A stretch of DNA of 44,970 nt, from positions 1-44,970 of IMG/VR virus record IMGVR_UViG_3300009001_000017; one strand, 5' to 3'. This DNA is from a virus. Under the pieces are notes generated by a model. The model did no database searches and had not been told where the DNA came from. It was given only the letters and a program-made list of their open reading frames with translations. The position numbers and the translations under genes were made by a program. Shown here one piece after another: positions 11,603 through 35,287 of the stretch (the first letter of the stretch is position 1; every line of letters begins with the position of its first letter).

Positions 11603-11610
11603 GGTAAATA
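11603..11610 (+). promoter_or_regulatory. Late promoter-like octamer GGTAAATA
   Basis: On the plus strand GGTAAATA ends 6 bases before the ATG at 11617, with no Shine-Dalgarno. It repeats the spacing seen on the other strand. Confidence 0.5.
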
Positions 11611-11616
11611 GTGTAT

Positions 11617-17026: not shown

Positions 17027-17461
17027 ATGACCAAGAAGATTATTGGATGCGGTGCATTATTCTACAGCAAAGAAACCAATCGTTTTTTATTGCTACACAG
17101 GACTCAAAGCAAACAGAACAGAGTGTGGGGATTAGTTGGAGGCATGACCACCAATGAACGTCCATGGGAAGGACTTCAACGTGAGATTAAGGAAGAAGTT
17201 GGTGATGTTAAAATATTAAAAACTATTCCAATGGAAACTTTTATTAGTAATGACGAAGCATTTTTATATCACACATATTTGTGTATTGTTGGTCCAGAAT
17301 TTTTACCAAAATTAAACAAAGAACACAATGGATATGCATGGTGTAGTTTTAATCATTGGCCTAAACCTTTACATCAAGGACTCCGAAAAACTTTGCAATC
17401 TAAAACCAATCAAACTAAATTGGAAACTGTGTTCAAAATTATCAAATTTTTAGATGATTAA
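17027..17461 (+). CDS. NUDIX hydrolase
   Basis: The 144-residue product has the full NUDIX box GGMTTNERPWEGLQREIKEE and then VGD at about residues 38-60, fitting G-x5-E-x7-R-E-x-x-E-E-x-G, the metal-binding loop that cleaves nucleoside diphosphates linked to another group. The N-terminal strand CGALFYSKETNRFLLLHRTQ is typical. The substrate cannot be read from sequence. Because its 3' end overlaps hldE by 8 bases, an NDP-sugar or ADP-sugar is plausible, but housecleaning of nucleotides is equally possible. It is the first gene of a six-gene run that continues to 21315. Confidence 0.85.
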   Translation: MTKKIIGCGALFYSKETNRFLLLHRTQSKQNRVWGLVGGMTTNERPWEGLQREIKEEVGDVKILKTIPMETFISNDEAFLYHTYLCIVGPEFLPKLNKEHNGYAWCSFNHWPKPLHQGLRKTLQSKTNQTKLETVFKIIKFLDD

Positions 17462-18722
17462 GATTATAGGAGACATAATGTTGGATGTTTGGGTACAGGG
17501 AGAATGTACTAAAGTATCTCCTGAAGCATCGGCCCTTGTGTTACATGAACACAGTCGAGATTACAACATAGGCGGAGCAGGAAACCTCGCTTTAAACCTA
17601 TCAAATCTCGGCGCAGACACGTATCTTTATGGATCGGTGGGCAACGATGCCCCTGGTCACAAAATCCAAGAGATTTTACTGCACAACAACATCAAAACGT
17701 ATCTGTGCCAGGATGCTGTAACAACCAGTACCAAAACACGTATGATAGGTCCTGACGGACAACATCTATTGAGATTGGATAAAGAACAGCATTATGAAAG
17801 TGAAGAACCTCAGAACAACCTTATCAAAGATTTAACTGAAGACGACGTGGTCATTGTGAGCGATTACAACAAAGGAGTTGTTAAACAAAATCTAATAAGA
17901 CAGATTGAAAACAAAGTAAAAAGAATATATGTAGATCCAAAACAACATCCTAACACATATTATGGTGCTTATCTTGTGAAACCCAACATGAAAGAATATG
18001 AAGCATGGTTTGGCAAGTTTGATCCACACACAGCAGAAATAAAAAGAGTACACAATTATTGGCAATGGTTGATTGTGACTGATGGTGCTAACGGCATTCA
18101 TGTGATTGGAGACAATGTGTATCAACACATAACGGGCAAGTCAGTTGAACTCGCAGATGTGAGTGGCGCTGGCGATACAGTGCTGGCAATCATTGTGTAT
18201 TATCATGAAATGGGTTACTCCATGGTAAATGCCAGTGAATTAGCACTCAAAGGAGCAAGTAGTGTTGTTCAACATCGCGGAGTCACTGTGGTTAAGAAAA
18301 GTGACATAGAAGATAGAGTGGTATGGACTAATGGTGTGTTTGATATACTACATGTTGGACATTTAGAATTATTAAAATTTGCGAAACAACAAGGGGATAA
18401 ATTGATAGTTGGTATTAATTCCGATCACAGCGTGAAAAGATTAAAGGGCGAATCTAGACCTTACAATAATGTTGATGAAAGACAGAATCAACTGAAACAA
18501 CTACCATGGGTAGATGATGTTGTGGTGTTTGACGAGGACACTCCTAAACAAGCAATAAAGAATATATCGCCAGATGTTATTGTAAAAGGCGGAGATTACA
18601 CAGTGGAAACAACTGTGGGAAATGAGATGGCTGAAGTTGTTATATTTCCCACTGTCAAAGGTTTTTCTACTACAAACTTAACGGAAAAGGTTAAACGTAA
18701 TGCAGAAAACAATAAAAAATAA
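17454..18722 (+). CDS. hldE: HldE: heptose-7-phosphate kinase / heptose-1-phosphate adenylyltransferase
   Basis: The 422-residue bifunctional enzyme fits E. coli HldE (477) with a compact N-terminus and linker. The kinase domain (1-280) is ribokinase-like: GDIMLDVWVQG, VSPEASALV, IGGAGNLALNLSNLGA and the phosphoryl-transfer motif DVSGAGDTVLA (GAGD at 238-241). The second domain (from about 288) is a nucleotidyltransferase: WTNGVFDILHVGHLELLKFA with HVGH at 300-303, GINSDHSVKRLKG, RPYNNVDERQ and DVIVKGGDYT. It converts D-glycero-D-manno-heptose 7-phosphate to the 1,7-bisphosphate and, after dephosphorylation, to ADP-heptose. GmhA and GmhB activities are not seen here. It overlaps both neighbours (8 and 23 bases). 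HldD lies three genes downstream. Confidence 0.93.
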   Translation: MIKIIGDIMLDVWVQGECTKVSPEASALVLHEHSRDYNIGGAGNLALNLSNLGADTYLYGSVGNDAPGHKIQEILLHNNIKTYLCQDAVTTSTKTRMIGPDGQHLLRLDKEQHYESEEPQNNLIKDLTEDDVVIVSDYNKGVVKQNLIRQIENKVKRIYVDPKQHPNTYYGAYLVKPNMKEYEAWFGKFDPHTAEIKRVHNYWQWLIVTDGANGIHVIGDNVYQHITGKSVELADVSGAGDTVLAIIVYYHEMGYSMVNASELALKGASSVVQHRGVTVVKKSDIEDRVVWTNGVFDILHVGHLELLKFAKQQGDKLIVGINSDHSVKRLKGESRPYNNVDERQNQLKQLPWVDDVVVFDEDTPKQAIKNISPDVIVKGGDYTVETTVGNEMAEVVIFPTVKGFSTTNLTEKVKRNAENNKK

Positions 18723-19317
18723 TAAAATCATAATAGATAATCTGTGTCCTAAACCAGAAGCAGATGCTATCAATGAAATATATGTTGGAGAGCATTTTCC
18801 ATGGTATTTTAAAAACTATGTTGTGGACGAAACTATGATAAAAGACGGCACAGAAAATTATCAATATCAATTTACACATCATTTGTTAAGAGAAGACGGA
18901 AATATAGTCACTGAACAAAATTATTGGCAAGCACTGTTTCCAATTTTCAACAGAATACACCCTAATACTTTTGTAAGAATAAAAGCCAATCTTGTGCCCA
19001 GAGCAGACAAAGTAGTGGTGCACGGATTCCATGTTGATTGTATGGTTCCTTTTAGCATCACAGGAATTTATTACTGCAACACCAATAATGGCTACACAGC
19101 ATTTGAAGATGGAGACCAAATTGAAAGTGTACAAAACAGATTAGTTTTGTTTCCAAGCAACATGAAACACTCTGGATCCACATGCACAGATGCTAATTCA
19201 CGTGTTGCAATTAATATAAATTTTATTCCCAGATATGTGGAAGACTCTATGTACAAAGATATAATAGATGTTGAAGTGTGGAATCAAATTCAAAAATGGT
19301 GTGATAAAGTAGAATGA
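18700..19317 (+). CDS. 2-oxoglutarate/Fe(II)-dependent oxygenase, prolyl-hydroxylase-like
   Basis: The 205-residue product has the jelly-roll iron triad HVD (H111, D113) and H157 in SNMKHSGST, with R168 in NSRVAININF as the 2-oxoglutarate anchor. Strands FVRIKANLVPR, ITGIYYCNTNNGYTAFEDGD and RLVLFPSN are typical of the prolyl 4-hydroxylase-like group. The substrate is unknown. It is embedded between hldE (23-base overlap) and the SGNH gene (ATGA overlap), so it may act on a sugar or on a protein of the same modification pathway. It is unrelated in detail to the oxygenase at 12511-13155. Confidence 0.8.
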   Translation: MQKTIKNNKIIIDNLCPKPEADAINEIYVGEHFPWYFKNYVVDETMIKDGTENYQYQFTHHLLREDGNIVTEQNYWQALFPIFNRIHPNTFVRIKANLVPRADKVVVHGFHVDCMVPFSITGIYYCNTNNGYTAFEDGDQIESVQNRLVLFPSNMKHSGSTCTDANSRVAININFIPRYVEDSMYKDIIDVEVWNQIQKWCDKVE

Positions 19318-20099
19318 AATTATTAACTTTTGGATGCAGTTATACCAACTACTATTGGCCCACGTGGAGTGATCTTTTAGGACATCAGTTTGACGATTAT
19401 CAAAATTGGGCTATCAGTGGTCTGGGTAACAATGCAATCATGCAAAGACTGAACGAAGCCGTAACATCTAACACACTGAATAAAGATGATGTTGTGGTTG
19501 TGCAGTTTACAGATTTGAATAGAATTGATATGCATAGCATTGGTATATTGCCTTTCGGAAATTGGCGTGCCGGAGGAAACATTTGGATGAAACCCAGTGA
19601 AGAACCTTGGATCAGAGACACATGGAATGAAGACAGTTATGCCTACATGAATCACAACTATATCAGTATGACGATGAATTTTTTAAAAAACCTACCTTGT
19701 AAATGGGCAGTAACCAGCAGTGTGGATTTACCACAAATATTGGCAGATAAGGAATTTGTTCATAATAAAAACATTTATAGTAATTGGATAAAACCAATCC
19801 AACTTCATGCAGATGAATCAAATAGTCCAGTAGTTAATGTGAAATACAAAGACGCAGACTCCATAAGTTTGTTTACAAAAAAACAAAAAATAGATCAAGA
19901 CAGGCATCCATCTATTAATACCTATGCCCGTTGGGTGAAAAAATACTTGGCACCAAAACTTGATTTAGATATCAAAGACAATGAATTTTTAAATCACTAT
20001 TTGACAAATGATGAGATCGATGTTAATATGATAGATAAAACAAACTTGTACTACACAAAATTTAAATGGGCAGGCAAGTATCAATATTTTGGATATTAA
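19314..20099 (+). CDS. SGNH/GDSL-like hydrolase
   Basis: The 261-residue product begins LTFGCSYTNYYWPTWSDLLG, with the block I nucleophile S9 in GCS, an SGLGNNAI block with N40, VVVQFTDLNR (a strand equivalent to block III) and DRHPSINTYARWV with H198 as the probable catalytic base. SGNH enzymes cleave or transfer ester groups, often acetyl, on sugars and lipids. In this operon a sugar O-esterase or transferase role is reasonable but not shown. It overlaps the upstream oxygenase by ATGA and abuts hldD directly (TAAATG). The C-terminal 50 residues are not recognised. Confidence 0.72.
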   Translation: MKLLTFGCSYTNYYWPTWSDLLGHQFDDYQNWAISGLGNNAIMQRLNEAVTSNTLNKDDVVVVQFTDLNRIDMHSIGILPFGNWRAGGNIWMKPSEEPWIRDTWNEDSYAYMNHNYISMTMNFLKNLPCKWAVTSSVDLPQILADKEFVHNKNIYSNWIKPIQLHADESNSPVVNVKYKDADSISLFTKKQKIDQDRHPSINTYARWVKKYLAPKLDLDIKDNEFLNHYLTNDEIDVNMIDKTNLYYTKFKWAGKYQYFGY

Positions 20100-20912
20100 A
20101 TGAAAATTTTAGTTACAGGCAGTGACGGATTTATAGGAAAAAACCTTATTAATCATTTGAGTAAAAATCACACAGTTGAAGGATTTGAATATACTCCCAA
20201 TGTTTATCCAGATGCTTCTAAATACGATTGGATTATCCATTTAGGTGCAATTAGTTCAACCACAGAAACAAATGTTGATAAAATTTTAACACAAAATTAC
20301 GAGTACAGCATGAGATTGTTGCAGATGTGTGAACAGATGGGAACAAACTTTCAATATGCCAGTTCAGCAGGAGTTTATGGAAACACACACGAGTTCAACG
20401 AAGAAAGCGACTGTCATCCTCAATCTCCCTATGCATGGAGCAAATATCTTTTTGATAGATTTGTTAAACTAGCAGGCGAATTCAATGTGTTGGTGCAAGG
20501 TTTTCGATACTTTAATGTGTATGGTCCTCATGAAGAACACAAAGGAAATCAAATGAGTCCGGTGAGTAAATTTGTTCAACAAGCAAAAGACAATAACACA
20601 ATAAAAATTTTTAACAATAGCGAGCATTATCAAAGAGATTTTGTTTCGGTGCATGATGTTTGTGAGGTACACAAACAAATGCTTGATGTAGATAAATCAG
20701 GAATTTACAATGTTGGAACCGGTTCTTGCACCAGTTTTAAACGTGTGGCAGAAATAATTGCCAAAAAACACAATGCTAACATAGAAGAAATACCCATGCC
20801 TGACAGTGTAAAACAGCATTATCAAAGTTACACCAAGGCAGACAATTCTAAAGTAAATAGATTAGTAAAAATAGATTGGAGCACTGTAGAACAATATGTC
20901 AACGCACAATAA
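20100..20912 (+). CDS. hldD: HldD: ADP-glycero-manno-heptose 6-epimerase
   Basis: The 270-residue product (E. coli HldD is 310) is an NAD(P)-dependent extended short-chain dehydrogenase: Rossmann VTGSDGFIGKNL (G7, G10, G13), YASSAGVYG, the catalytic Y111-x3-K115 in YAWSK, and the HldD-specific GFRYFNVYGPHEEHKGNQMS with K148, followed by QRDFVSVHDV and IYNVGTGSCTSFKRVAEIIA. It converts ADP-D-glycero- to ADP-L-glycero-D-manno-heptose, the donor for heptosyltransferases. HldE upstream makes its substrate. The match extends through the C-terminal region (EEIPMPDSVKQHYQSYTKAD), so this is more than a generic epimerase. Confidence 0.9.
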   Translation: MKILVTGSDGFIGKNLINHLSKNHTVEGFEYTPNVYPDASKYDWIIHLGAISSTTETNVDKILTQNYEYSMRLLQMCEQMGTNFQYASSAGVYGNTHEFNEESDCHPQSPYAWSKYLFDRFVKLAGEFNVLVQGFRYFNVYGPHEEHKGNQMSPVSKFVQQAKDNNTIKIFNNSEHYQRDFVSVHDVCEVHKQMLDVDKSGIYNVGTGSCTSFKRVAEIIAKKHNANIEEIPMPDSVKQHYQSYTKADNSKVNRLVKIDWSTVEQYVNAQ

Positions 20913-21315
20913 GAATGGTAAAATAACAAAAGGCTGGGGCTACGAAGTTATATGGGCTTCTAATGAACATTATTGTGGAAAATTCTTAGTCTTTACAAAA
21001 AAAGATGCAAAATTTTCTATGCACTTTCATAAAAACAAAGACGAAACTTGGTTTGTTAACGACGGTGAATTCAAATTAAGGTACATAGATACAAAAACTG
21101 CAACACTTTACGAAAAACCTTTAAAGACCGGTGACACTTGGCATAATCCTCCATTATTGCCACACCAATTAATTTGTACAACTGATACAGGCAGTGTAAC
21201 AGAGGTTAGTACAATGGATGATCCGGATGACAACTACAGAGTTATTCCTGGCGATGGACAAAAGGATCCTGTTAATCCTGCTGATCAGCAGAATATAGCA
21301 AAAAAATTATTGTAA
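20896..21315 (+). CDS. Cupin-domain protein, phosphomannose-isomerase-like
   Basis: The 139-residue single cupin has the metal motif MHFHKNKDETWFVNDGEF (H43, H45, E50, G57; H-x-H-x4-E-x6-G) and a second motif around PPLLPHQLI. The N-terminus KGWGYEVIWASN resembles type II phosphomannose isomerase cupins, which act on sugar phosphates or NDP-sugars. Its exact reaction cannot be told; isomerase or epimerase work on a sugar is likely given hldD directly upstream (17-base overlap). It is the last gene of the rightward operon. Confidence 0.75.
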   Translation: MSTHNKNGKITKGWGYEVIWASNEHYCGKFLVFTKKDAKFSMHFHKNKDETWFVNDGEFKLRYIDTKTATLYEKPLKTGDTWHNPPLLPHQLICTTDTGSVTEVSTMDDPDDNYRVIPGDGQKDPVNPADQQNIAKKLL

Positions 21316-21316
21316 A

Positions 21317-21340
21317 AGATTAAAATTATCTAATTTTTTT
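21317..21340 (+). terminator. Possible weak terminator at the convergence point
   Basis: AGAT-loop-ATCT followed by AATTTTTTT lies just after the cupin stop. The stem is short and AT-rich, so it is weak. It would separate the rightward operon from the convergent fibre operon, whose last stop is at 21326. Confidence 0.3.
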
Positions 21341-21451
21341 ATTGATATAACGCACGGCAACGTATACTGCTAATCCTAACAAAATATACACACTACCATC
21401 GAACCATGATATTTCATTCAATAAGTCTGCTGTAATAAAAGACAAATCCAT
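21326..21451 (-). CDS. 41-residue single-pass membrane protein
   Basis: This reading frame encodes MDLSFITADLLNEISWFDGS, then a hydrophobic helix (residues 20-35, VYILLGLAVYVAVRYI) and a basic end NKKIR. Its ATG overlaps the stop of the 2327-residue gene (TAATG), indicating coupled translation. An acidic N-terminus and basic C-terminus predict the C-terminus inside. The function is unknown. It is the last gene of the leftward fibre operon, and its stop lies only 10 bases from the convergent cupin stop. Confidence 0.65.
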   Translation of the reverse strand: MDLSFITADLLNEISWFDGSVYILLGLAVYVAVRYINKKIR

Positions 21452-24400
21452 TACGCTTGTGCTTCAGACCAACGCAGTGTAACTGTTGCATTAACACCAC
21501 CTGTACCACCAGTTCTGAAAATGTTAATTGCTAACACGTCAGGACCATTAGGGAACGTACCTCTGCCACCCAGTGTGGTGTTGGTCAATTCTTGGATTGT
21601 GTTCAATGCAAGTGTTGATCTTTCTCCAGGCTGTGCAACAAATGAGAAAATACTTTGACCCGGTTGTGCATATGGAGGTTGACCAAATTTAAATGAAACA
21701 GCAGTACCACCTGCTATTGCGCCACTGAATGATTGGTTAAATGTAACACGATAGTAGTTTGTAGAACCAAATGAAGTGACAGGTGCTATTGATACTATCG
21801 ACGAACCTGCTGGAAATTCTGTGCTGGTGTCTACATCAACTTCAGTACCAGTTGTGGCTCCTAATGCTAGCCATGATGCTTCCTGGAAGAATAGGTAGTT
21901 GGAGTTTGCAATAGAACCACCATAACTGAAGTTAACTGCTTCACCTTGGCTGATTCCCGTGTGTCTCTGAGAGAAGTACACCAGATAGTAATTTCCTCTG
22001 TCCTGAATCTGTGTCACTGTGGTTCCTGCTGGGAATTGACTAGATGTCACCTCCATACCAACTACGTGACCTTTGTTTTCCCAATCTGCGTCTAGGAAGT
22101 ATGCATAGTTTCTATTACCTCCCAAGCCAAACCAGTGGTTGGATGTAGAGGTCATAGCATTTGTTGTTAATGCTGTTGCTGTGGTCGAAACTGTACCTGA
22201 GTTCCATACAACTGAACCACCTGGAGCAATTTGAGCAAATGATGGTTGACCACCTTGTGCAACTCCTGTTAAATCTGTCCAACCAATATCACTTGGATCA
22301 ACTGGATAGTTTTGTGGATTTAGAATTCCGTTAATTACAATCTGACCTGCGGCTTGACCCGCTTGTGGATCCTCTGTGGTAATTTCTAATCCATCCAATA
22401 GCAATTGGGCTCTGTTTAACAAGTCTCTATCACCTAAATCACCAGTTAATGCGTTGGACACTGAAGGAGCCAATCTCAATAGGAACACTGTCTGTCTTGT
22501 GGTTGTGATGTCTAACCCTGTTGCAGAGTAACTGAACAAGTATCCTCTGTCTTCATCAAAGTTACCATCTGTAATAAATGCTGATCCCCAGTGTGATATA
22601 ATTGGTGATGACGTATTGGATATCAATACCACTCCGGTGTTTCTAAAGTGTTCTGAAGCAATACCAGCCGTGTAGTTTCTGGTGGCTCCTGAAGCAAAGT
22701 TTGTTAATTGTGCTCCACGAGTACAACCTGTCAATTTATCGTTTTCAACTCCTGTGAATGTGATAATTTCGTTGTCAACGTACACAGTACCACCTGTTGG
22801 TGGAAAGAAAGAAGCATCAATCAAAGGCAGTTCAGTTGCTGTTGCTGTTACATTAGATTCTAGTTTTCCACTAGGTCCTTCGTTGGCTACTTCATAACGC
22901 ACAGGTTGGTTACCTGTTCTCATAAATGCTTCTGTGTTTACGTTTGAATTACGCATCCTGTGGGCAAAAACGAAATTACCATCTGCTCCCCTGGTCATAA
23001 AATCAATGAAACCTGCACCATACCATGAAAACTGTATCCCAATCATCTGCATCTTGCCTGGATCAAAATTGTATCCGCTTGGGCCTGTGCCATCGATTTT
23101 GTCTAAATTGAATTCTGATTGTTTTGCAACTTTGTCTAAAACCAAACATGCTTTTACTCCTTGTGATACGTTGACACCTCTGTAATCCGGAGTAACATAC
23201 ATTTCTGTGTTGGATGTAACTTGGTTGACAACGTGAGTCATACCTCTGATAACAATTCTGTCACCTGCTTTGACTTGTTCTCTAAATCTTGTGCTTTCTC
23301 CTGATACTGTGTTTGAATCTGGAGTCACTGTCACAGTTCCTGTCATCTGTCTTGTTGATGTTCTTTGTACGAATGATAAATTTGTTCCATCATACTGCCA
23401 GAAAATACCGTTTTGATCATCAAATGTTCCTGAACGCACAGTTGCTCCATTCCAATTGGACAATGATACTTGAGGTTGATCACCAAACTCTGCTATTGTA
23501 CTTCCTAAAGATTGAACTGCTAAAACTGTAAATTGTCTTTCACCTATTACACTTGCCACAGTGTAATAATTGTTGTATCCAGAAGTTTGAATACCGATCA
23601 ATCTCACTCTAGCACCTACTTGTAAACCATGGTCTGTGTCATCAGTTGTCACTGTAATTGTTGAACCCACAGCAGTACCATCTGCTGTAACATTTAATAA
23701 GTCATAACTTGGTGCAAACAAGGCACCAGTTGTGTACATGATACCTTTACCTGATTGATATCTAATGTATTTTTTACTTTGACGTATTGCTTGCGATCCG
23801 TGTTGTGGACCTCCAGTACCCAATTGTACACCACCATCAAATGGTCTGTGAACAAAGAATGAATCTGGTCTTACATAAATGAATCCTTGCCATGCGTCAT
23901 CAGTTATTGTTCCTGGTGCTCTCACTTGGTATCTTAATTGAGATTGACTTGGAATTGATGTTGCTAAAAACGGTCCTGATGCTAACAAGTGATTGTTACT
24001 ACCATCATCTGATTGAATTGTAACTAAGAACGAATCTCCAGGCACAAGTCCGTGTGGAGTTTCAAAGTCAACTTGCATAGTTGCCAATGCGGCATATGTC
24101 AATGTTGTAGCACTTGGAATACTGTTGTTGGTTGGTTCAGAAACTGTTATACTTGAGTAAACTGATATTCCTGTTCCCGAAGCCGCTGTACCCGTGTGTG
24201 TATTTGCTAACACGTCACCATTTGTAGCAACAGATTGTACTCTAACTGTGACATCATTTGCCGGAGATGATCCGCCTAAACTTTGTCCTTGTAGAGTTAT
24301 TCTATCTCCAACAGCATAATTTGAACCGCTTGTTGATACTATTACTTCTGTGTAATTGGTTGACGAATCGTCTGTTGTGGATCTTGTTACGCTGAATGTT

Positions 24401-27400: not shown

Positions 27401-28434
27401 TCGTTTCTTTCTAAATCTGGAAGATTGTCTAATCCATTTTCAATCACGTCAGTGATAATAAAATTAAGTGCTGTGATACGTGCAGGAACACCTGCCTCGC
27501 CTGCTGTAGTACCTAAGTATTGTGTTGTAACAACTGGTGATTGTTTTGTTGTAACTGCTGTTCTAGTTAAGATGTAATCGTTAATTACACCTTTGATATA
27601 ATTTTTTACTAATACTTCTGGTTGTCTGTCGCCGTCAATTTGTGGAGTAGATCCAATCCAATACTTTGATGCATTGAATCTCGATTCTTGATTACCACCA
27701 TATCTTAAATCATTTAAAAATCCATTAAGATTATAACCCATGTCTCTTTCACATTTTGCTGAATCATATGTGTAACCTGCAAATATATAAGAACTGCTGA
27801 CCAAGGTTGGTAAATTTATAATTCCATTATCTAGAGTAGTAATAAAACCATTTGCTAGTGTAGTAAATGTTGTTACTCCGTTTGCTTCTGCTGATGCTCC
27901 TGAAGTGTCTTGTGATGTAATTCCTTGAAGACTACTGAATGCTGAGCCAGGTAAAATGTAGTTTACAACTAAATTTCTAGCATATTCAAAATAAGCAACT
28001 TCTGGTTCACCATCTCCATTAATTAATAACGTTCCATCTTGGAAATAAGTTTGCACAAATAAATTTGTGTTTTCATTTCCACCATATCTTAAATCTTTAT
28101 TGAGTCCAGTTAACCAAGTATCAATAGTTGTCTCTAATTGTAAAGCGTCATATGTGTAACCTGCAAAAGGTGGAACACTGGTTGCTTTTTGTTGTGCAAC
28201 GTATGCCACTATTTCATCTTTGATGTATTCTATATTGTTTGTAAGTTTGTTTACTGCGTTTGGAAATTCATTTGCCGCTGAATCAGTTGCTACTCTTTCA
28301 GCAACATATCCTACTGACTCATCTTTTAAAAATTCTAAATTGTTTTGAATTAAATCATAAGCATTAGGATAAAGATTTCCTGATTTAGGTATCCCTGGTT
28401 GAAATATATAATTTGTTACTTTACGTTTTGCCAT
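21451..28434 (-). CDS. Giant virion fibre/adhesin protein, 2327 residues
   Basis: This long, strand-rich protein has no signal peptide or membrane segment. The N-terminus has paired modules (LIQNNLEFLKDESVGYVAER / LTNNIEYIKDEIVAYVAQQK) and two copies of a Y-D-x-x-K/Q-C/L module with DLRYGGN, also found in the 1788-residue protein. Roughly 710 residues (nt 24170-26290) are eight degenerate repeats of about 85 residues with the core NxGxxYxxGdxixixGxxLGGxxPxNDxTIxV. The C-terminal third (GIQFSWYGAGFIDFMTRGAD onward) resembles marine T4-like structural proteins. It is a likely tail-fibre or whisker-type receptor-binding virion protein. A TAGGAG Shine-Dalgarno precedes the ATG. Confidence 0.8.
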   Translation of the reverse strand: MAKRKVTNYIFQPGIPKSGNLYPNAYDLIQNNLEFLKDESVGYVAERVATDSAANEFPNAVNKLTNNIEYIKDEIVAYVAQQKATSVPPFAGYTYDALQLETTIDTWLTGLNKDLRYGGNENTNLFVQTYFQDGTLLINGDGEPEVAYFEYARNLVVNYILPGSAFSSLQGITSQDTSGASAEANGVTTFTTLANGFITTLDNGIINLPTLVSSSYIFAGYTYDSAKCERDMGYNLNGFLNDLRYGGNQESRFNASKYWIGSTPQIDGDRQPEVLVKNYIKGVINDYILTRTAVTTKQSPVVTTQYLGTTAGEAGVPARITALNFIITDVIENGLDNLPDLERNEISSIKAPGKISLDDVLLITNTTRNKVLYNFADATLGAEISYETEEDPDYPTFLQNTDTVSTVFLNFDTSTFDESDSIQMFVEDKVIRTRPYDFGTDAIERMRVAPAQSMLDADFEYGLQPTKWQAIGTQRGYPSIYEIPGTDIDVDTVETDASAGTEGIGSSLITVNTVGPHAFEPGDAFTIIGFTNGVPGTGRAQGSFVVNTIPTTRQFTYYAKAKVGTVNGSEIHTTFTQLRKAGFYSGATIGRPSFSVASNGANGDFITPIGAQSGTTIIPFQDTDLPEIGSPLTGTGVATGTQITAVTGTGSTLATPEVEGDYTAGTTEINVVDSAGILQNSVIDRGDGFGIAITNVAGNTLTLSSGLSQTLIGDRTTYSNVGGFNVNPAGQNFVCDVFNAGGIYSITITNSGENYEVGDAILITGDLIGGATPANDLTISVESVDTGGEVLTTSLDGEAFTGSGTQTNLPGTYNNGAGVGGTFDVTKTNNAYSATLLDPSFTAVEGTVTGGSGAGLEIDVTLTNNVYSATLSGDDASTGYIVNDVVEFTGGNFGGNTDNNLYLRVTGVDGAGAITTFTTSGTGPDALESYVVGVNDYTTDSVAGSGATFSVTREGTTYTATVTGLGSDFAQNETITVLGSFLGGVDSTNDLTITIDSVDGGGGVLTITPTGTAANTKSFLTVNTGSNLLGNGASFDVELSGATYNTITINNAGQNYGIGQNLVILGTSLGGATPTNDLTLQITAITGTRGVSTFTESGSAATGGTSGFVVGDQIKAEGSNLGGVTGTNDAIIKVTAVNGDSSINTVTVSGTATDALVVIENPTYTGGSGAGANFEITRTGTVYSAVVAPAGTGYNVTDQFVIAGTELGGLSPANDCTIDVDSIDGSGGVATFTVTGTAVNTQTFTNAPVSNLSGQNASFDITLNAGVYSIAVNNAGQDYGSDQTFTVLGTELFGISPDNDATITVTSINATGGITGASISGTANSGSASTLGATGSNRQPQGVGATFSVTRSTTDDSSTNYTEVIVSTSGSNYAVGDRITLQGQSLGGSSPANDVTVRVQSVATNGDVLANTHTGTAASGTGISVYSSITVSEPTNNSIPSATTLTYAALATMQVDFETPHGLVPGDSFLVTIQSDDGSNNHLLASGPFLATSIPSQSQLRYQVRAPGTITDDAWQGFIYVRPDSFFVHRPFDGGVQLGTGGPQHGSQAIRQSKKYIRYQSGKGIMYTTGALFAPSYDLLNVTADGTAVGSTITVTTDDTDHGLQVGARVRLIGIQTSGYNNYYTVASVIGERQFTVLAVQSLGSTIAEFGDQPQVSLSNWNGATVRSGTFDDQNGIFWQYDGTNLSFVQRTSTRQMTGTVTVTPDSNTVSGESTRFREQVKAGDRIVIRGMTHVVNQVTSNTEMYVTPDYRGVNVSQGVKACLVLDKVAKQSEFNLDKIDGTGPSGYNFDPGKMQMIGIQFSWYGAGFIDFMTRGADGNFVFAHRMRNSNVNTEAFMRTGNQPVRYEVANEGPSGKLESNVTATATELPLIDASFFPPTGGTVYVDNEIITFTGVENDKLTGCTRGAQLTNFASGATRNYTAGIASEHFRNTGVVLISNTSSPIISHWGSAFITDGNFDEDRGYLFSYSATGLDITTTRQTVFLLRLAPSVSNALTGDLGDRDLLNRAQLLLDGLEITTEDPQAGQAAGQIVINGILNPQNYPVDPSDIGWTDLTGVAQGGQPSFAQIAPGGSVVWNSGTVSTTATALTTNAMTSTSNHWFGLGGNRNYAYFLDADWENKGHVVGMEVTSSQFPAGTTVTQIQDRGNYYLVYFSQRHTGISQGEAVNFSYGGSIANSNYLFFQEASWLALGATTGTEVDVDTSTEFPAGSSIVSIAPVTSFGSTNYYRVTFNQSFSGAIAGGTAVSFKFGQPPYAQPGQSIFSFVAQPGERSTLALNTIQELTNTTLGGRGTFPNGPDVLAINIFRTGGTGGVNATVTLRWSEAQA
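24170..26290 (-). repeat. Eight degenerate protein repeats inside the giant fibre gene
   Basis: The conserved core LGGxxPxNDxTIxV (with variants FGISPDNDATI and FGGNTDNNLYL) recurs near nt 24255, 24550, 24805, 25055, 25215, 25470, 25740 and 26115. Each is preceded by a Y-rich strand and followed by a variable Gly/Thr-rich strand ending near SGTA. Divergence between copies is high, so they are old repeats. Confidence 0.7.
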
Positions 28435-28438
28435 TCTT

Positions 28439-30316
28439 TTATACTCCTAATGCAATTGCCAACACTGTTGACGTGTTGTCCACATAAGTTTTTGTTGTAA
28501 CATCGTTTGCTTCCGTAGGCGCACTGGTCACTGTGGCACTAGAAAATGCTCCAGATGCCGGAACAGTTGCTCCTATTGTAGTGTTATTTAACGTTCCTTG
28601 ACTGGTTTCTAATTGTGAAAAGGTACCTTTTCTTGCTGTGGTTTGTCCTATATCTACGTTGTCTACGGTGCCTAAATTAGTAGGTGACACAGTCAGTACA
28701 CCTGATCCTTGAGGAGAAACAACTACGTCGGCATTAACCGGAGTTAAAGTAGTTTGTCCCAGTGTTCTAAAAGATTTTGCATTGATATCTAGGTTTGATA
28801 TAAAACCTCCACCTGCTGGATTGATAACAACCGAACTGTAACTACCTGTTGGTGCAAGTGAAATTTCTGCATCCTGACCATTGTTAATCAAATCGCCTGT
28901 GTTAAGTATGGCACTGAAACTTCCAATTCCAGTAAATGTGGGATCTTCTACACTAATCAATCCTACTGGGTCTGAATCTCCGTCTCCGTAGAACAATGTG
29001 TCTGGAGCATCAACAGGTGTTGTGATTGTGATTGTACCCAATGATTGATTTTGAGCATTTGCTCCTGTCAAAGTTGTTGGTACTGGAACATCTTCAAAAG
29101 TTGTCTGAGTAATTGTGTCGGTGATATAAGTTTGAATGCTAGATTGATAATCTCCAAAATTACTTCCTACTCCTTCATACGCATAAAGTTTTATTGCTCC
29201 ATTTTTATAATTGTAAAGTAATTCTCCTGTTGGCAGTGCTACACCTTCTGACAATTGATCTGCAATTTCATTTTCTGCTCTTGCCCAGGCATAAATTGTG
29301 TTTTCTGCACCTGTTAAATCTAAACCATTTGCTGTTCCTCCAGCGTATGGCCAATTTAAATTGTTTGTTCCATGGAACATTAAAATGTTTCTTCCAACTA
29401 ATGGTACTGTTGGTGTCCATACTATTTCTGTTGAATCATCCTCTACCTGTGGATTCAATTCAATTGAATAAAAAGTGTCTATTCTTTCATTTTGATCAGT
29501 AAAGGTTAATTTGTGTTGATCAAAGTGTAATAGACTTGAAATAAGAACTAAATTTTTAATATTATTATTTTGTGTTTGAATTGCATATTGTTGTGCTAGT
29601 TGGCCACCCACACCATAACCTATCAATGTAATTTCTCTAGTATCTACATTGTCATAAGTTTCTAATTGGGTTAATATGCTGTCTATCAAAGCAACATCAT
29701 CTGATTTACTGATACTGTAACCAACATTCCAAGTATTTTTGTAACCTTGTGGTGCTATAACAACTTTGTCTGTGATAAAATTAACGTTATTAGAAACTTC
29801 AGTCATTGAACCTGATACATCATGTAGTGCAATAACCACAGGCAGTTTTTTTCCTACCAACTGAGTTTCAATTTCTAAATCAGGCGCTGTAATTTTTACT
29901 TTTCTTTCAAAATCGGTTTCTTGTAACCAAGTTTGTGTGAAAGTCCATTCTCCAGTTTCAATAATATTGCCTGTAACAACATTAGCATGTGTTAATCCTT
30001 CATTGAAAAGTGTACCAGGTACATTTGGGTCTGCATCACTAGGGGAAAATATATTAAATCCTAAATTTTCTAAATTTAATCCAATTGTTTTTGTTTCACC
30101 TCTTACCAAAGTGATAGTAGGATTATCGCCAACTAGTCCAGCAATACTGAATACTCCTTCTGATTCAGTTACACTGTAATCTGGAGCGGCAATAACTGGA
30201 GTTGGAATGAAAGTTTCAGTTATAGTTCTTACTACAACATTACCTTGATCATCAACTGTGAATCCCGGACTCTTAAAACCTGATTGTGCTTCAAATTGTT
30301 TGTAATTAATTGGCAT
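28439..30316 (-). CDS. Fibre protein with cupredoxin-like and inactive esterase-like (LpqC-type) domains
   Basis: The product is 625 residues. About 45-95 (NPTITLVRGETKTIGLNLEN) resembles the cupredoxin-like domain of marine secreted proteins. About 155-330 follows the LpqC/PHB-depolymerase alpha/beta hydrolase pattern: LPVVIALHDVSGS, VVIAPQGYKNTWNVGY, DDVALIDSIL, ITLIGYGVGGQLAQQYA and ILMFHGTNNLNWPYAGG. The nucleophile elbow reads G-Y-G-V-G (G235 where Ser is expected), and the usual Asp after HGT is Asn, so the domain is probably a catalytically dead binding module. The C-terminus, SGAFSSATVTSAPTEANDVT and then TKTYVDN, is typical of phage tail fibres. It overlaps no gene; the 2327-residue gene starts 5 bases downstream. 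Confidence 0.75.
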   Translation of the reverse strand: MPINYKQFEAQSGFKSPGFTVDDQGNVVVRTITETFIPTPVIAAPDYSVTESEGVFSIAGLVGDNPTITLVRGETKTIGLNLENLGFNIFSPSDADPNVPGTLFNEGLTHANVVTGNIIETGEWTFTQTWLQETDFERKVKITAPDLEIETQLVGKKLPVVIALHDVSGSMTEVSNNVNFITDKVVIAPQGYKNTWNVGYSISKSDDVALIDSILTQLETYDNVDTREITLIGYGVGGQLAQQYAIQTQNNNIKNLVLISSLLHFDQHKLTFTDQNERIDTFYSIELNPQVEDDSTEIVWTPTVPLVGRNILMFHGTNNLNWPYAGGTANGLDLTGAENTIYAWARAENEIADQLSEGVALPTGELLYNYKNGAIKLYAYEGVGSNFGDYQSSIQTYITDTITQTTFEDVPVPTTLTGANAQNQSLGTITITTPVDAPDTLFYGDGDSDPVGLISVEDPTFTGIGSFSAILNTGDLINNGQDAEISLAPTGSYSSVVINPAGGGFISNLDINAKSFRTLGQTTLTPVNADVVVSPQGSGVLTVSPTNLGTVDNVDIGQTTARKGTFSQLETSQGTLNNTTIGATVPASGAFSSATVTSAPTEANDVTTKTYVDNTSTVLAIALGV

Positions 30317-30318
30317 GA

Positions 30319-30816
30319 TTAGTATCCACTGCCTCCGTTATTATCTTGGTTAACATTTGATCTGTCATAGTCGTTTCCAGAATTGATCAGTTCAGATGCT
30401 CCACCCTGTAAAGCATTTTGAGTTTGAAAATACGTTGCACTAAAAATTACTTTTGCTCCTGCATAAGTTTCTGTGGGTGATTTTATTGCTGGATTTAGCA
30501 CAATTCTCACATATGAATTATTAACAGTACTAGAAACTGTGACTAGTTCGTTGCCCATGTTGCTTCTGCCATAAATTGTAACAGAACTGTTAGATGGTGT
30601 TGCACTTACTAAAATTTTTATTAGTTCTTTGTTGTTTGTGTCATAATCCACAGACACAGTGTACTCGGCTGTACAAAAGGTATTCACGTGGAATTGATCC
30701 ATTGTTGTGTCAGGTCTAACAACTACATAAGGCCCATTGTAGGACAGTTGTAAACCGTTTTTAAGCAGTAAGGTATTTCTAATTCCTTTTCCAAATAGTC
30801 GTGATACGTCAAACAT
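30319..30816 (-). CDS. Small virion structural protein, unrecognised
   Basis: The 165-residue product starts MFDVSRLFGKGIRNTLLLKN and is dominated by short beta strands with Thr/Ser/Asn, ending in a Gly/Asn-rich flexible tail (SNVNQDNNGGSGY). I know of similar small proteins beside fibre genes in marine T4-like phages but not their role. It lies between the GT9-like gene and the esterase-like fibre gene (2-base gap), with octamer GGTAAATA 22 bases upstream and no good Shine-Dalgarno. Confidence 0.65.
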   Translation of the reverse strand: MFDVSRLFGKGIRNTLLLKNGLQLSYNGPYVVVRPDTTMDQFHVNTFCTAEYTVSVDYDTNNKELIKILVSATPSNSSVTIYGRSNMGNELVTVSSTVNNSYVRIVLNPAIKSPTETYAGAKVIFSATYFQTQNALQGGASELINSGNDYDRSNVNQDNNGGSGY

Positions 30817-30838
30817 AGTGTAATATACTTTTTAAGTG

Positions 30839-30846
30839 TATTTACC
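30839..30846 (-). promoter_or_regulatory. Late promoter octamer GGTAAATA
   Basis: GGTAAATA lies 22 bases before the ATG at 30816 and after the sugar cassette, so it would start a new transcript for the downstream fibre genes. Confidence 0.5.
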
Positions 30847-30868
30847 TAACTTTTATGAAATTGAAAAA

Positions 30869-31825
30869 CTACTTTTTTTTATGTTTGTTTTTGAGCATGA
30901 AGTTGATAGAATTTACTACTTTCTGCTCTTGATTGTCGTCCATTTCCATAATACCTTCGTTTAATCGATCAGAATATTCATCACTTGTAATTCTGATTGG
31001 ACTGTATATCCTGCTTTTTTCGCCTAAATCAATAATATCTACTTTATCATCGTTTGGAAAGGACGTGTTGATAGGAAATGTACTTCCAATAAGCACAGTC
31101 ATTGTTTTGTCAAATGCATAAGCAAGGTGTTGACCCACTGAATCACAACCTACAAAATGATCAACCTGCTTAATCATAGCGGCCCATATTCTAATGTGTG
31201 TGTTAAGAGGCAGTGCCACTGGTTTGTTTATACCACCGTGTGTTTTAAATTCTAAACCAAATTCACTCATCACTATAACACCGTAATCTTTGCTTAATTT
31301 TTTGATAATTGACCATAAATTTTTAAGTTCTATACTTCTTCCTGTTAAATCTACCACTTCACTTTCTGATTTCTTTTCAGCACCTCTGCCAAAAGGTTGT
31401 ATCAAAACCAATTTATTTTTTCCTGTTTTTTCTTTAACTTCAGCCAACATTGACCTTGCTGTTAGAAGTTCTTCTTTTGAAATGTATAAGTTAGGTTTAG
31501 GCAATTTACGTAGACCTTTTTTGTTTATAGCAATGTCATATGCTTCTGCTAGACTACATTTTTGATTATAGTACTCCCATACTCTGTAAGGTTCGGGTGA
31601 AACAAGATTTCTATTTTTTAATAAATCTTGAAATAGATTTTTATGCCAATTATCATATGCTCTAAAATGCAATAACGGATGTCCTTTGTATGCATCTGTG
31701 CCACCTTCACAAACTACAATAAAATCATCTTCTGGATTTTCTTTTGCATATAATTCTAGTGCAGGTATAGAACTGATATGTCTTCCTGCTCCTCCGTTCA
31801 TAAAGAACGCACTATGTCTAGTCAT
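30869..31825 (-). CDS. GT9-family (heptosyltransferase-like) glycosyltransferase, copy B
   Basis: The 318-residue product has a GT-B layout. The N-terminus FFMNGGAGRHISSIPALELY is the GT9-type Gly loop, with GCDSVGQHLAYAF at 226-238 followed by MTVLIGSTFP, the acceptor/donor pocket that in ADP-heptose heptosyltransferases reads D-S/T-G-x-x-H-L-A. GT9 enzymes transfer heptose from ADP-heptose; hldE and hldD lie in this window. It has no signal peptide, so it is cytoplasmic. It is a paralogue of the gene at 33625-34584, sharing SPEPYRVWEY, NQKC, LPKP and VIVMSEFG. It overlaps the carbamoyltransferase gene by 8 bases. Donor and acceptor are not proven. Confidence 0.75.
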   Translation of the reverse strand: MTRHSAFFMNGGAGRHISSIPALELYAKENPEDDFIVVCEGGTDAYKGHPLLHFRAYDNWHKNLFQDLLKNRNLVSPEPYRVWEYYNQKCSLAEAYDIAINKKGLRKLPKPNLYISKEELLTARSMLAEVKEKTGKNKLVLIQPFGRGAEKKSESEVVDLTGRSIELKNLWSIIKKLSKDYGVIVMSEFGLEFKTHGGINKPVALPLNTHIRIWAAMIKQVDHFVGCDSVGQHLAYAFDKTMTVLIGSTFPINTSFPNDDKVDIIDLGEKSRIYSPIRITSDEYSDRLNEGIMEMDDNQEQKVVNSINFMLKNKHKKK

Positions 31826-33632
31826 TGGTCACCTTTATTAGTTTTCCATATTCAATCAAATATAGATATTCTATTTCAGAATTTTGCAATGTTCTTACAG
31901 CATCATCCACAGTTTCCACTAATGGTTCCCCTCCTAAATTAAATGAAGTATTGAACACTATAGGACATTTTGTGATTTCATTGAATTTACTGATTAGTCT
32001 ATGATACAGTTTATTATCTTCCGGTTTTACACTTTGTATTCTGCATGTGCCATCAACGTGTATAATACTAGGTATTTTTTCTTCAACACCAGGTTTGCAA
32101 TTTACAGCATACATCATGTGAGGAGTTTCTTCCATTCCTCTCAAATCAAACCAATCATGTGTGTATTCGTGCAATATAGATCCTGCAAATGGTCTAAAGT
32201 ATTCTCTATGTTTTACTCCATTTACGAAGTCTTTTCCATCTTTAAACCTTGGATCAAACAATAAACTTCTGTTTCCCAGTGCTCTTGGACCGTTTTCTGA
32301 TTGACCTTGCCACAATGCCACAATGTTTTTTTCAGTCATCAACTTAACAATGTCTTCATCTTTTGCGTCAACAACTTCTACACCATCTAGGTCATTGTAT
32401 TTTGTAATATCTTCGTTGGTTAGTTTATATGTTGGTCCTAAGTATAAACTTTTTGTTGTTCCTTTTTCAGTGGTTTGTTCTAATGAATAGTAATACAATA
32501 GAGCGGCGCCCATGGCTGTACCTGCATCGTTAGACACTGGTTCTACGTATATTTCTATACCGTCTTTGCGTAAACTATCAAGGTAGTAATAATTTGCCAC
32601 ACAATTAAGACCATAACCGCCTGATATTACAACTTTCTTCTTGCCAGTTTTTTCTACTGCTTTATAGATCAATTTTAAAACTTCTTCTTGGGTCGATGTT
32701 TGACAAGAGTAAGCAAGATCTCTGCGACTTTGTAATTCTGTTAAGTCGTTTTGATTTACTTCAAGTTTTTCTTCTAAACTGTAATAGTTGTCATAGTTCA
32801 CAAGAGCGGCATTTGGGTATGTAGGAATTATTACATTTCTATCACTCAATGTTCCTTTTCCGTTGTGGACAAACAATGGTGGTATTTGATCATTTGGTTT
32901 TCCATATGGAAACAGTCCCATAGTTTTTCCTGCTTCAATGGCTGAAAATCCACAGTACTGTGTAACTGCTTCATACACTTTAACAATACCTGCTCTGTCC
33001 GAGAACACTGCTTCGTGTGTACTGCCTGGCTCTCCCATTGAATCTGAAGGATAATTTGGAATATATGCACACTGACAGTTTTCACTTGTACCATAGTGTT
33101 TGTACATTGTTGTAAAATCATTAGGATATGAACAATCAAAAATTGTTTCTGTTTCAAACACAGTCATTTGATGACCTGCACTATGAGTTGCTGGAATAAA
33201 AGTTCCTGCACCGTCTACAATTAATGCCGCGGCATCGTCCCAGCCTGATCTGTAAAAAGCACATGCGGCGTGTAATTTGTGATGAATATGAGATAAATCA
33301 ATAACTTGTGGATGTTCTGGTCCTTTTTTAGTTCCGTGTTTATCAATCAATCCTAACTTTCTAGCAAGTCCAGTGTAAACATCGTCGCCGTTATAGTCAA
33401 CTCTGCCTGTACTTCTGTCTTTTAATGATTGTGTGTGAGCAATTACAAGATAGTCAATCTTGTCTGTGTATTCTAAAATTTTAACCATTGATGCATATGG
33501 TCCCCCATCGTATTTTACACGACTTAATCTTTCTTCTTCTATAGAAAAAACTATTTTTCCATCTTTAAGCAAACATACGCCAGAATTGTGTCCTCTGGCA
33601 ATAGCCGCGATATAACCTGTCTTATTATTCAT
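31818..33632 (-). CDS. Carbamoyltransferase, NodU/TobZ family
   Basis: The 604-residue product shows a YrdC-less O-carbamoyltransferase layout: N-terminal ARGHNSGVCLLKDGKIVFSI followed by EEERLSRVKYDGG, HIHHKLHAACAFYRSGWDDA with metal-type histidines, LIVDGAG, EAGKTMGLFPYGKP, ISGGYGLNCVANYYYLD, SNDAGTAMGAALL, the signature WQGQSENGPRALGNRSLLFD, and REYFRPFAGSILHEY. Family members use carbamoyl phosphate and ATP to put a carbamoyl group on sugar hydroxyls or amino sugars (nodulation factors, tobramycin). It is sandwiched between two GT9 paralogues with 8-base overlaps on both sides, so all three are likely one translational unit that makes a carbamoylated sugar. Confidence 0.88.
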   Translation of the reverse strand: MNNKTGYIAAIARGHNSGVCLLKDGKIVFSIEEERLSRVKYDGGPYASMVKILEYTDKIDYLVIAHTQSLKDRSTGRVDYNGDDVYTGLARKLGLIDKHGTKKGPEHPQVIDLSHIHHKLHAACAFYRSGWDDAAALIVDGAGTFIPATHSAGHQMTVFETETIFDCSYPNDFTTMYKHYGTSENCQCAYIPNYPSDSMGEPGSTHEAVFSDRAGIVKVYEAVTQYCGFSAIEAGKTMGLFPYGKPNDQIPPLFVHNGKGTLSDRNVIIPTYPNAALVNYDNYYSLEEKLEVNQNDLTELQSRRDLAYSCQTSTQEEVLKLIYKAVEKTGKKKVVISGGYGLNCVANYYYLDSLRKDGIEIYVEPVSNDAGTAMGAALLYYYSLEQTTEKGTTKSLYLGPTYKLTNEDITKYNDLDGVEVVDAKDEDIVKLMTEKNIVALWQGQSENGPRALGNRSLLFDPRFKDGKDFVNGVKHREYFRPFAGSILHEYTHDWFDLRGMEETPHMMYAVNCKPGVEEKIPSIIHVDGTCRIQSVKPEDNKLYHRLISKFNEITKCPIVFNTSFNLGGEPLVETVDDAVRTLQNSEIEYLYLIEYGKLIKVTND

Positions 33633-34584
33633 CTTCTTGCCTTCCCATTATTGTGTCAACAACATAATTTTCTATTTCATCTGTCATCAACATTACGTTT
33701 TCATTAACTCTACTAATTCTTTCGTCGAATGTTATTCTTATTGGATCGTACTGTCTATCGTTCATTCCTAAATCAACAACACTAACTCCTTTTTGATTTG
33801 GGTACGTGGTGTTTTCTGGAAATGTTGCTCCAGTTATTACTGTGCATGGTGTATCAAGTGTGTGTGCAAAGTGTTGTCCCACTGAATCACAACCTAAAAA
33901 ATGATCTACTTGTTGAATTATGGATGCCCAAATTCTTAAATCTATTTTTTCTGGTTGAGCAACTTCCATTTCATAATTTTCATCCTTAAGTTCGATGCCA
34001 AACTCACTCATCACAATCACACCGTAATTTTCTTTTTGTAATTTTCTAATGATATTTTTAAAATTTTTAAAGTCTATGCTTCTGTTACTTTTGTCCACGA
34101 AACTTTGATCAATCTGTTGTATGGCTCTTCCAAAGGGTTGAAACACAATATATTTGTCTGCTTTAATTTTGTCTTTACATTCTTGTAAAACTTTTTCTGC
34201 AGATATCTTTTCTTCTTTTGAAAGAAAAATTCTTGGTTTAGGTAATTCTCTAACACCTTTGTCATTCAAAATAATATCAAATGCCTGCGATAGATTGCAC
34301 TTTTGATTGAAATATTCCCATACTCTGTAAGGTTCGGGTGAAATAATTTCTCTATTTTTTACATGTGTGTGAAATAAATTTTTGTGCATTATATCATATG
34401 TTTTGCCATCTAATGTAGGATGACCATCTAATATATTACACTTACCTTCGATCACAACGATAAAATCTTCATCGCCTGATTCTTCTTGGTATTTCTCGAT
34501 TGCTGGAATGGCACATAGGATTCTTCCTATACCACCATTTAAAAATATTGCTTTGGAACGTTTAGTTTGATTATTTGTATTCAT
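33625..34584 (-). CDS. GT9-family (heptosyltransferase-like) glycosyltransferase, copy A
   Basis: The 319-residue paralogue of copy B begins with a Gly loop FLNGGIGRILCAIPAIEKYQ at residues 14-33 and has GCDSVGQHFAHTL at 231-243 followed by CTVITGATFP. It shares the middle segment SPEPYRVWEYFNQKC and VIVMSEFGIEL with copy B. It is the first gene of the GT-carbamoyltransferase-GT cassette and overlaps the carbamoyltransferase gene by 8 bases. Its ATG lies inside the 3' arm of a 12-bp perfect inverted repeat (34581-34619), and I see no Shine-Dalgarno, so its translation may be held low. ADP-heptose as donor is inferred from the family and from HldE/HldD in this window. Confidence 0.75.
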   Translation of the reverse strand: MNTNNQTKRSKAIFLNGGIGRILCAIPAIEKYQEESGDEDFIVVIEGKCNILDGHPTLDGKTYDIMHKNLFHTHVKNREIISPEPYRVWEYFNQKCNLSQAFDIILNDKGVRELPKPRIFLSKEEKISAEKVLQECKDKIKADKYIVFQPFGRAIQQIDQSFVDKSNRSIDFKNFKNIIRKLQKENYGVIVMSEFGIELKDENYEMEVAQPEKIDLRIWASIIQQVDHFLGCDSVGQHFAHTLDTPCTVITGATFPENTTYPNQKGVSVVDLGMNDRQYDPIRITFDERISRVNENVMLMTDEIENYVVDTIMGRQEDE

Positions 34585-34633: not shown

Positions 34634-35287
34634 TTAAGTTAGATCTGGATAAGGTTTGAAAGGTATTTTCCAGTGTGCCACATCGGCATATTTTGCTTCT
34701 AAACCCTCTAACCATGTGATGTAATCTTTTAGTTCTTGGATTTTTTCTGCATTATGTTCTGGATTTTCATCAATCTCTTTTTGAATTGATTCTTTCTGAT
34801 TTGGAACTGTTTGGAAAAATGATTCTCTCGTCAATGCATGAGTTCTCATTTTTGGACCCACAAAGTTACCACCTGTGAAAAACAATGTATCACCAAAGTA
34901 TATCTGGTTGATAATTCCGGTGTTATCATTCCAATAATAAGTCCATGTTTCTGGATTGTCATCTTCGTCAGTGGTACCCAAATCTTCTGTGTAGTCGTCC
35001 ACTTCACCGGTCTCATAAAAACCATTGATGTATGATGCTTCTAGTGGACTAGATTGTGCATCTACCACATGAAATGATGTTCCTGCTCTTGCTGGTATTC
35101 CATTTTCCAATTCAGCCTCTGTGTCTCCATCAGCAACAACGGCACACAACAGACCATCTGAATCCTGTTTCTCTACTTTAAGAAATCTAGGACCTTTGTA
35201 GACGCCTGGATGTGTTTTGCCTTCACTGAAATCATCCACATATGGCTCATTTGGCATTGCTATGTCAAAGTTTACTGTAATTGCCAT
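34634..35287 (-). CDS. Virion-associated protein of unknown function
   Basis: The 217-residue product starts MAITVNFDIAMPNEPYVDDF. It is acidic and soluble, with beta-rich segments (RFLKVEKQDSDGLLCAVVAD, QIYFGDTLFFTGGNFVGPKM) and a helical C-terminus (KIQELKDYITWLEGLEAKYA). I recognise no family. It lies directly after the three cysteine-rich genes and before the sugar cassette. It has octamer GCTAAATA and an AGGAGA Shine-Dalgarno, a well-expressed late gene layout. Fibre assembly or virion structure is inferred from neighbours. Confidence 0.65.
   Translation of the reverse strand: MAITVNFDIAMPNEPYVDDFSEGKTHPGVYKGPRFLKVEKQDSDGLLCAVVADGDTEAELENGIPARAGTSFHVVDAQSSPLEASYINGFYETGEVDDYTEDLGTTDEDDNPETWTYYWNDNTGIINQIYFGDTLFFTGGNFVGPKMRTHALTRESFFQTVPNQKESIQKEIDENPEHNAEKIQELKDYITWLEGLEAKYADVAHWKIPFKPYPDLT

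Follow-up and report, generated by a model that had tools for sequence, protein, structure and literature searches.

The closest described counterpart of the locus analysed here is a set of cyanophage genes. Sullivan et al. (2010) reported that T4-GC 304, 305, 307 and 308 are found together with three further clusters, described them as lipopolysaccharide (LPS) genes, and did not decide whether such clusters are functional or stuffer DNA (PMC3037559). I identify these four as the nucleotidyltransferase, kinase, cupin and epimerase of a heptose cassette. Among single enzymes, the nearest comparisons are the LPS heptosyltransferases WaaC and WaaF, the NodU/TobZ O-carbamoyltransferases, and the BAHT heptosyltransferases (TibC/AAH), which use an ADP-heptose donor and a protein adhesin as acceptor; TibC has Asp110 as its catalytic base and an iron-finger motif (PMC4358343). 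The subject of this paper is a related group of genes in the IMG/VR virus record IMGVR_UViG_3300009001_000017, analysed over its entire 44,970 bases (hereafter the window), in which HldE-like and HldD-like enzymes, two GT9-like glycosyltransferases and a carbamoyltransferase lie among tail-fibre genes. I tentatively favour the reading that ADP-heptose made by the phage feeds heptosyl and carbamoyl decoration of its distal tail fibres.

All of the genes named in the original prediction are intact open reading frames and lie at the positions given there. The first enzyme of the plus-strand sugar cassette (17454..18722) fuses a PfkB kinase (PF00294) to a nucleotidyltransferase (PF01467), and its best families are those of heptose-7-phosphate kinase (TIGR02198, 1e-65) and heptose-1-phosphate adenylyltransferase (TIGR02199, 3e-45), with PDB entry 4e84 matched at 3e-28. 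The NxxE, GAGD and TNGxFDxLHxGH motifs of this HldE-like protein are invariant among relatives, as are the kinase residues Asn178, Glu181 and Asp241 and the nucleotidyltransferase residues His300 and His303 of HxGH. The putative ADP-heptose 6-epimerase (20100..20912, plus strand) matches TIGR02197 at 5e-73 and PDB 1eq2 at 7e-47, and retains throughout its relatives Tyr111, Lys115 and Lys148, that is, the Tyr/Lys pair of the short-chain dehydrogenases/reductases and a second base specific to HldD; Lys148 aligns with Lys178 of E. coli HldD, which I take to be the second base of that enzyme. The prediction of HldE and HldD with their catalytic motifs is thereby borne out, and families and residues alike support the ADP-heptose chemistry attributed to them. 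In one relative (L012, 10001-11254) HldE is just 79% identical to that of the window (17454-18722) amid neighbouring genes that are 98-100% identical between the two phages, a pattern that suggests, from sequence, replacement of the HldE allele by recombination.

The minus strand carries a triplet in the order GT9 copy b (33625..34584), carbamoyltransferase (31818..33632), GT9 copy a (30869..31825), with 8-base overlaps between the genes. Both GT9-like copies belong to phrog_8954 (copy b at 3e-127) and are 50% identical to each other; copy b is the one retained in relatives with a single GT9, judged by its position upstream of the carbamoyltransferase. Pfam GT9 scores are sub-threshold, and the GT9 profile retrieved no GT9 relatives from PDB by sequence, but the fold search did: the top Foldseek matches of the AlphaFold model of copy a (mean confidence, pLDDT, 93.4) are all GT9 enzymes (3tov, 1psw, 2gt1, 4rap), with the Veillonella GT9 (3tov), E. 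coli WaaF and WaaC, and TibC ranking first at E 1.5e-11 to 1e-8, and 4rb4 joining 4rap among the BAHT matches. It is the predicted structure, then, that secures the family assignment. Like WaaC and WaaF, these proteins have the GT-B fold of GT9 and its donor motif, here GCDSxGQH, whose Asp228 and His233 are invariant in 45 sequences and align with WaaC Asp261 and His266; for WaaC I take Asp13 to be catalytic, Lys192 to play a part, and Asp261 and His266 to bind the donor. The identity of the carbamoyltransferase is unambiguous by sequence. As in other NodU/TobZ enzymes, both the N- and C-terminal domains are present and above cut-off (PF02543, 6e-29; PF16861, 2e-55), the active-site segments are conserved, and the PDB matches are 7xb6, GdmN and TobZ. 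Two GT9-type enzymes with a carbamoyltransferase between them, as originally proposed, are therefore found, the former by fold and the latter by Pfam domains.

The phage carbamoyltransferase differs from described NodU/TobZ enzymes in being the near-obligate partner of a GT9-like enzyme. Among loci flanked by 5 kb at either end, which are related and so do not represent independent events, GT9 is accompanied by the carbamoyltransferase in 53/53 and the carbamoyltransferase by GT9 in 53/53, while a phrog_9740 gene adjoins GT9 in 53/53 and a fibre-tip gene is found with it in 47/53; conversely, fibre-tip loci contain both GT9 and carbamoyltransferase in 28/28. This near-obligate module of GT9, carbamoyltransferase and glycine-rich fibre-tip protein supports the predicted link of the two enzymes to fibre genes.

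In the window, this module is encoded on the minus strand and is headed by a long tail-fibre protein (39095..44461) homologous to the tail fibres of P-SSM2, S-CAM3, S-SSM7 and Sf-FS3 (hidden Markov model E-values of 8e-304 to 1.7e-169 in cyanophage loci). Three glycine/cysteine-rich paralogues follow (37365..38330, 36322..37356 and 35338..36306), the first two assigned to phrog_4205 and aligned as paralogues, and the last modelled by AlphaFold with a pLDDT of 81, and then the phrog_9740 protein (34634..35287). The best Foldseek matches of the modelled protein in PDB are the fibre of cyanophage Pam3 (7ypx) and the Bxb1 tail tip, with TM-scores of 0.31-0.40, which are low; its viral matches in BFVD have S-CAM3 and P-SSM2 module proteins on top and include Gp38 of syn9. 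These comparisons of a predicted model support a receptor-binding-like, fibre-tip role and leave the fold itself unfixed. Beyond the triplet lie a small conserved module protein (30319..30816), a probable virion protein with an alpha/beta-hydrolase-like stretch (28439..30316) and a very large virion or tail protein (21451..28434), which in its conserved position follows GT9 and carbamoyltransferase and precedes the sugar cassette.

Hidden Markov models recover a common order in relatives: long fibre, two proteins of ~110 residues, two or three glycine/cysteine-rich phrog_4205 proteins, phrog_9740, GT9 and carbamoyltransferase; frequently another GT9, or one or two SGNH-like proteins; the small and very large tail proteins; in some phages only, the sugar cassette; and finally nudix, gp15 and gp14. 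A tblastn search of the phage collection with the fibre-tip and phrog_9740 proteins found nothing, possibly owing to the low-complexity filter, whereas the models found both on the fetched loci. Tryptophan-halogenase-like flavoproteins and several 2-oxoglutarate (2OG)-Fe(II) oxygenases also cluster with GT9 and carbamoyltransferase (L121, 1137-7826; L138 of S-SSM7, 11511-12998), hinting at halogenation and hydroxylation as further fibre modifications.

These observations can be arranged into a pathway. Sedoheptulose-7-phosphate would be converted to D-glycero-D-manno-heptose-7-phosphate by a host enzyme, or by the cassette cupin substituting for GmhA. HldE would phosphorylate this product at C1, the 7-phosphate would be removed by a phosphatase (from the host for the window phage, but a phage-encoded GmhB or small HAD for its relatives), the second domain of HldE would adenylylate the product, and HldD would then epimerise C6. 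The GT9-like enzyme or enzymes would transfer the heptose and the carbamoyltransferase would carbamoylate it, the likeliest acceptors being the glycine/cysteine-rich fibre-tip proteins, whose genes lie directly upstream. I infer the identity of the donor, the acceptor, the order of transfer and the role of the cupin; the data themselves establish the enzyme families, the conserved HldE and HldD residues, the GT9 fold, the gene linkage, the absence of GmhA and purifying selection (dN/dS 0.05-0.25 in comparisons with enough divergence). The cassette is real, conserved and probably functional.

The absence of GmhA, which the original prediction had noted, holds well beyond the window: no SIS_2 match was found in its 45 kb, in 23 related contigs of up to 364 kb or in 6 complete cyanophage genomes, by a search that gave matches in 9/14 control genomes. 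That of GmhB stands for the window genes scanned, none of which encodes a GmhB-like product, yet not for relatives, since the cassettes of L271 and L273 contain GmhB-like genes (NF006506, 6e-41 and 2e-39). A small HAD protein in L055 matches the EcbF-BcbF phosphatase model, and similar small HADs occur in cyanophages, where one of them (T4-GC 306) is called a phosphoheptose isomerase. I do not accept that protein as a GmhA: it has ~110 residues, a HAD DxDGT motif and no SIS domain, SIS_2 is missing genome-wide, and its L055 homologue is of the EcbF-BcbF type. By sequence it looks like a small HAD phosphatase, and its name looks wrong.

The cupin (20896..21315, plus strand; Cupin_2, 6e-8) is a candidate sugar-phosphate isomerase with an invariant HxH..E..H motif, whose profile weakly matches various cupins, including D-lyxose and L-ribose isomerases. 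The name of its family, phrog_7851, is cysteine dioxygenase, which looks wrong and which I do not accept for this sugar-isomerase-like protein. Those cassettes inspected that have kinase, nucleotidyltransferase and epimerase also carry the cupin, except where the contig ends nearby, and my hypothesis is that it substitutes for GmhA. In P-TIM68 a thiamine pyrophosphate/transketolase-like gene lies upstream of the heptose genes (L139, 3768-4913) and is possibly linked to the supply of sedoheptulose-7-phosphate.

Although the window has a tail module in common with cyanomyophages, two markers place it outside that group. Its terminase is 52% identical to those of PA5oct-type Pseudomonas jumbo phages and its gp14 homologue is nearest to Atu_ph07, Phosso and PA5oct, so a cyanomyophage placement is not supported; judged by the sequences of terminase and neck proteins, the source is a marine giant-type phage closest to PA5oct/Phosso-type jumbo phages. 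A near-identity DNA search of the phage collection with the window region gave no match. Despite these markers, the window and the cyanophages have in common the order of fibre, small proteins, tips, GT9 and carbamoyltransferase.

The combination of genes is likewise not the first of its kind, contrary to the original prediction. P-SSM2, S-SSM7, S-CAM1, S-CAM3 and Sf-FS3 share the order fibre, tips, GT9-like enzyme, carbamoyltransferase, nucleotidyltransferase, kinase, HAD, cupin and HldD, in some of them interrupted by 2OG oxygenases, an additional carbamoyltransferase or a tryptophan halogenase, and the co-occurrence of four of the genes had already been reported by Sullivan et al. In P-SSM2 the run from GT9 to cupin is almost gap-free with overlapping genes; there and in S-CAM1 and S-CAM3 it forms a single overlapping or near-abutting run, with HldD facing, between tail-fibre genes. 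This cyanophage cassette (T4-GC 302-308) resembles that of the window in its tail fibre, tips, HldE activities, cupin, HldD and gene order, its GT9-like proteins being 45-53% and its carbamoyltransferases 48-60% identical, but it differs in its split kinase and nucleotidyltransferase, added small HAD phosphatase, single GT9 and phage backbone. I found nothing relevant to a phage heptose-fibre system in the open-licence literature. The combination is thus not a first sighting; no description of its function was found, and the GT9 clade is unusual.

The acceptor could instead lie on the host, the enzymes modifying LPS or another surface glycan and so blocking superinfection or altering recognition, as proposed for pelagimyophage sugar genes. 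LPS is the substrate of WaaC and WaaF, and Zaragoza-Solas et al. (2020) favoured O-chain modification for the sugar genes of the pelagimyophage host-recognition cluster, rfaE included (PMC7029224). However, in two phage lineages GT9 and carbamoyltransferase go together with fibre-tip genes, and the module genes showed no flippase, polymerase or membrane-linked acceptor. Furthermore, the LPS of Synechococcus WH8102 contains neither heptose nor 3-deoxy-D-manno-octulosonic acid (PMC4515613), leaving no heptose core to extend, and Sf-FS3, which was isolated on WH8102, carries the whole operon; this favours an acceptor chosen by the phage over completion of a host core. I therefore regard host-surface modification as rather doubtful.

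Several findings weigh against decoration with heptose, and some of them suit an explanation in which GT9 and carbamoyltransferase form one module with another donor while HldE, HldD and the cupin belong to a separate sugar pathway that merely shares the fibre region. The HldE-like protein falls below the NCBI curated equivalog cut-offs (222 against 345 bits for TIGR02198, 153 against 181.5 for TIGR02199), as does the epimerase (246 against 274.6 bits for TIGR02197), which is therefore called HldD-like, even though these are still the best families and, for the epimerase, by far the best. In the window the two enzymes lie on the strand opposite GT9 and carbamoyltransferase, ~10 kb away.

Where WaaC has its presumed catalytic Asp13, the profile alignment shows an invariant Arg15, and Lys192 is matched by Arg163; the alignment is distant (~12% identity), with the Asp13 equivalence fairly clear from GxGR..IPAL against MGD..LPAL and that of Lys192 less so. 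Acceptor chemistry therefore differs from that of classical heptosyltransferases, and I class the phage protein as GT9-like, stopping short of naming it a heptosyltransferase. It departs from WaaC and WaaF also in being virus-confined and fibre-linked, and from TibC in having this Arg and a carbamoyltransferase partner. The fold groups with the heptosyltransferases WaaF, WaaC and TibC; the tie to ADP-heptose as the probable donor is one of genomic association.

Co-occurrence is similarly divided. All five complete cyanophage genomes examined with this GT9 (5/5) have kinase, nucleotidyltransferase and epimerase, but 11/23 long contigs with GT9 and carbamoyltransferase, all of them possibly incomplete, show no kinase and nucleotidyltransferase pair; heptose may therefore not be transferred in every phage, and different phages may use different donors. 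The pathway occurs without such a GT9 in P-TIM68, and in three contigs (G006, G016 and G017) the sugar cassette is far from GT9 and carbamoyltransferase. On the other hand, cyanophage genes overlap from carbamoyltransferase into nucleotidyltransferase, full HldE occurs in 6/6 contigs with two GT9 copies against 6/17 with one (uncorrected for relatedness), and the GT9 fold is that of the ADP-heptose enzymes. The proposal of one system is consequently plausible, given the single run of cyanophage genes, and not universal, given the many GT9-carbamoyltransferase contigs without HldE nearby; I consider two unconnected pathways unlikely.

A bolder form of fibre decoration would have a module that moves between cyanomyophages and PA5oct-like jumbo phages. 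Its carbamoyltransferase and a GT9 clade confined to viruses, with an altered catalytic centre, would put carbamoyl-heptose on fibre tips, drawing on a phage ADP-heptose route with the cupin in place of GmhA; taken as a whole, this is quite unlikely. A scan of 84,980 cellular species genomes for the GT9 gave just seven loci, all in metagenome-assembled genomes. Four have the fibre module; one, on the short contig L266, has a fibre-tip gene; and L268 and L269, binned as a gammaproteobacterium and a woesearchaeote, hold only distant GT9-carbamoyltransferase pairs. These two contigs may belong to phages, or the pair may have arisen in cells.

Modification of phage DNA by the carbamoyltransferase, and perhaps by the GT9-like enzymes, is very improbable. 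A carbamoyltransferase of the same Pfam family from a phage-enriched metagenome carbamoylates 5-hydroxymethylcytosine, but such DNA-modifying members co-occur with thymidylate synthase or deaminase genes, and those in unmodified contigs adjoin glycosyltransferases (PMC8670742). The scanned window genes and the relatives' module show no linkage to thymidylate synthase or dCMP hydroxymethylase, the neighbours being GT9 and fibres, and none of those synthases or deaminases was seen in the module. The ThyX-linked S-RIM44 homologue also falls outside the GT9-linked carbamoyltransferases, with moderate support (86/70), as does a long-branched second copy in L265. That the sugar genes are non-functional cargo, the stuffer DNA raised by Sullivan et al., is scarcely credible and already largely contradicted by intact catalytic residues, the dN/dS values and an order conserved in two phage lineages.

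The remaining genes of the plus-strand run, which overlap or abut from nudix to cupin, have less certain parts. The first encodes a nudix hydrolase (17027..17461; PF00293, 8.5e-14) that in relatives tracks the neck gene gp15 and not HldE, adjoining gp15 on the opposite strand in L053-L056, and it probably lies outside the heptose pathway. The phrog_274 product (18700..19317) has the HxD..H..R motif of a 2OG-Fe(II) oxygenase and matches PF13640 at 4e-4, its S-SSM7 homologue doing so at 5e-9; I do not accept the family name DNA endonuclease V for it. A putative SGNH/GDSL-type protein (19314..20099) has FGCSYT and DxHPS motifs with invariant Ser9 and His198, an assignment that neither fold nor family searches confirmed; its homologues are located between GT9 and carbamoyltransferase in L104, L109, L116 and L132. 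Elsewhere in the window (11888-13155), a dNMP kinase-like gene and another 2OG-Fe(II) oxygenase adjoin gp13, with synteny kept in relatives.

If cyanophage "LPS" clusters do serve to decorate fibre tips with heptosyl and carbamoyl groups, peptides of the fibres should show a mass shift. Several misleading annotations would then be corrected, the cyanophage genes being listed at present as hypothetical, LPS, phosphoheptose isomerase or cysteine dioxygenase. The system would parallel, in phages, the heptosylation of bacterial adhesins, a likeness proposed here by analogy, and would be relevant to how receptor binding is tuned, or fibres are protected, in marine phages.

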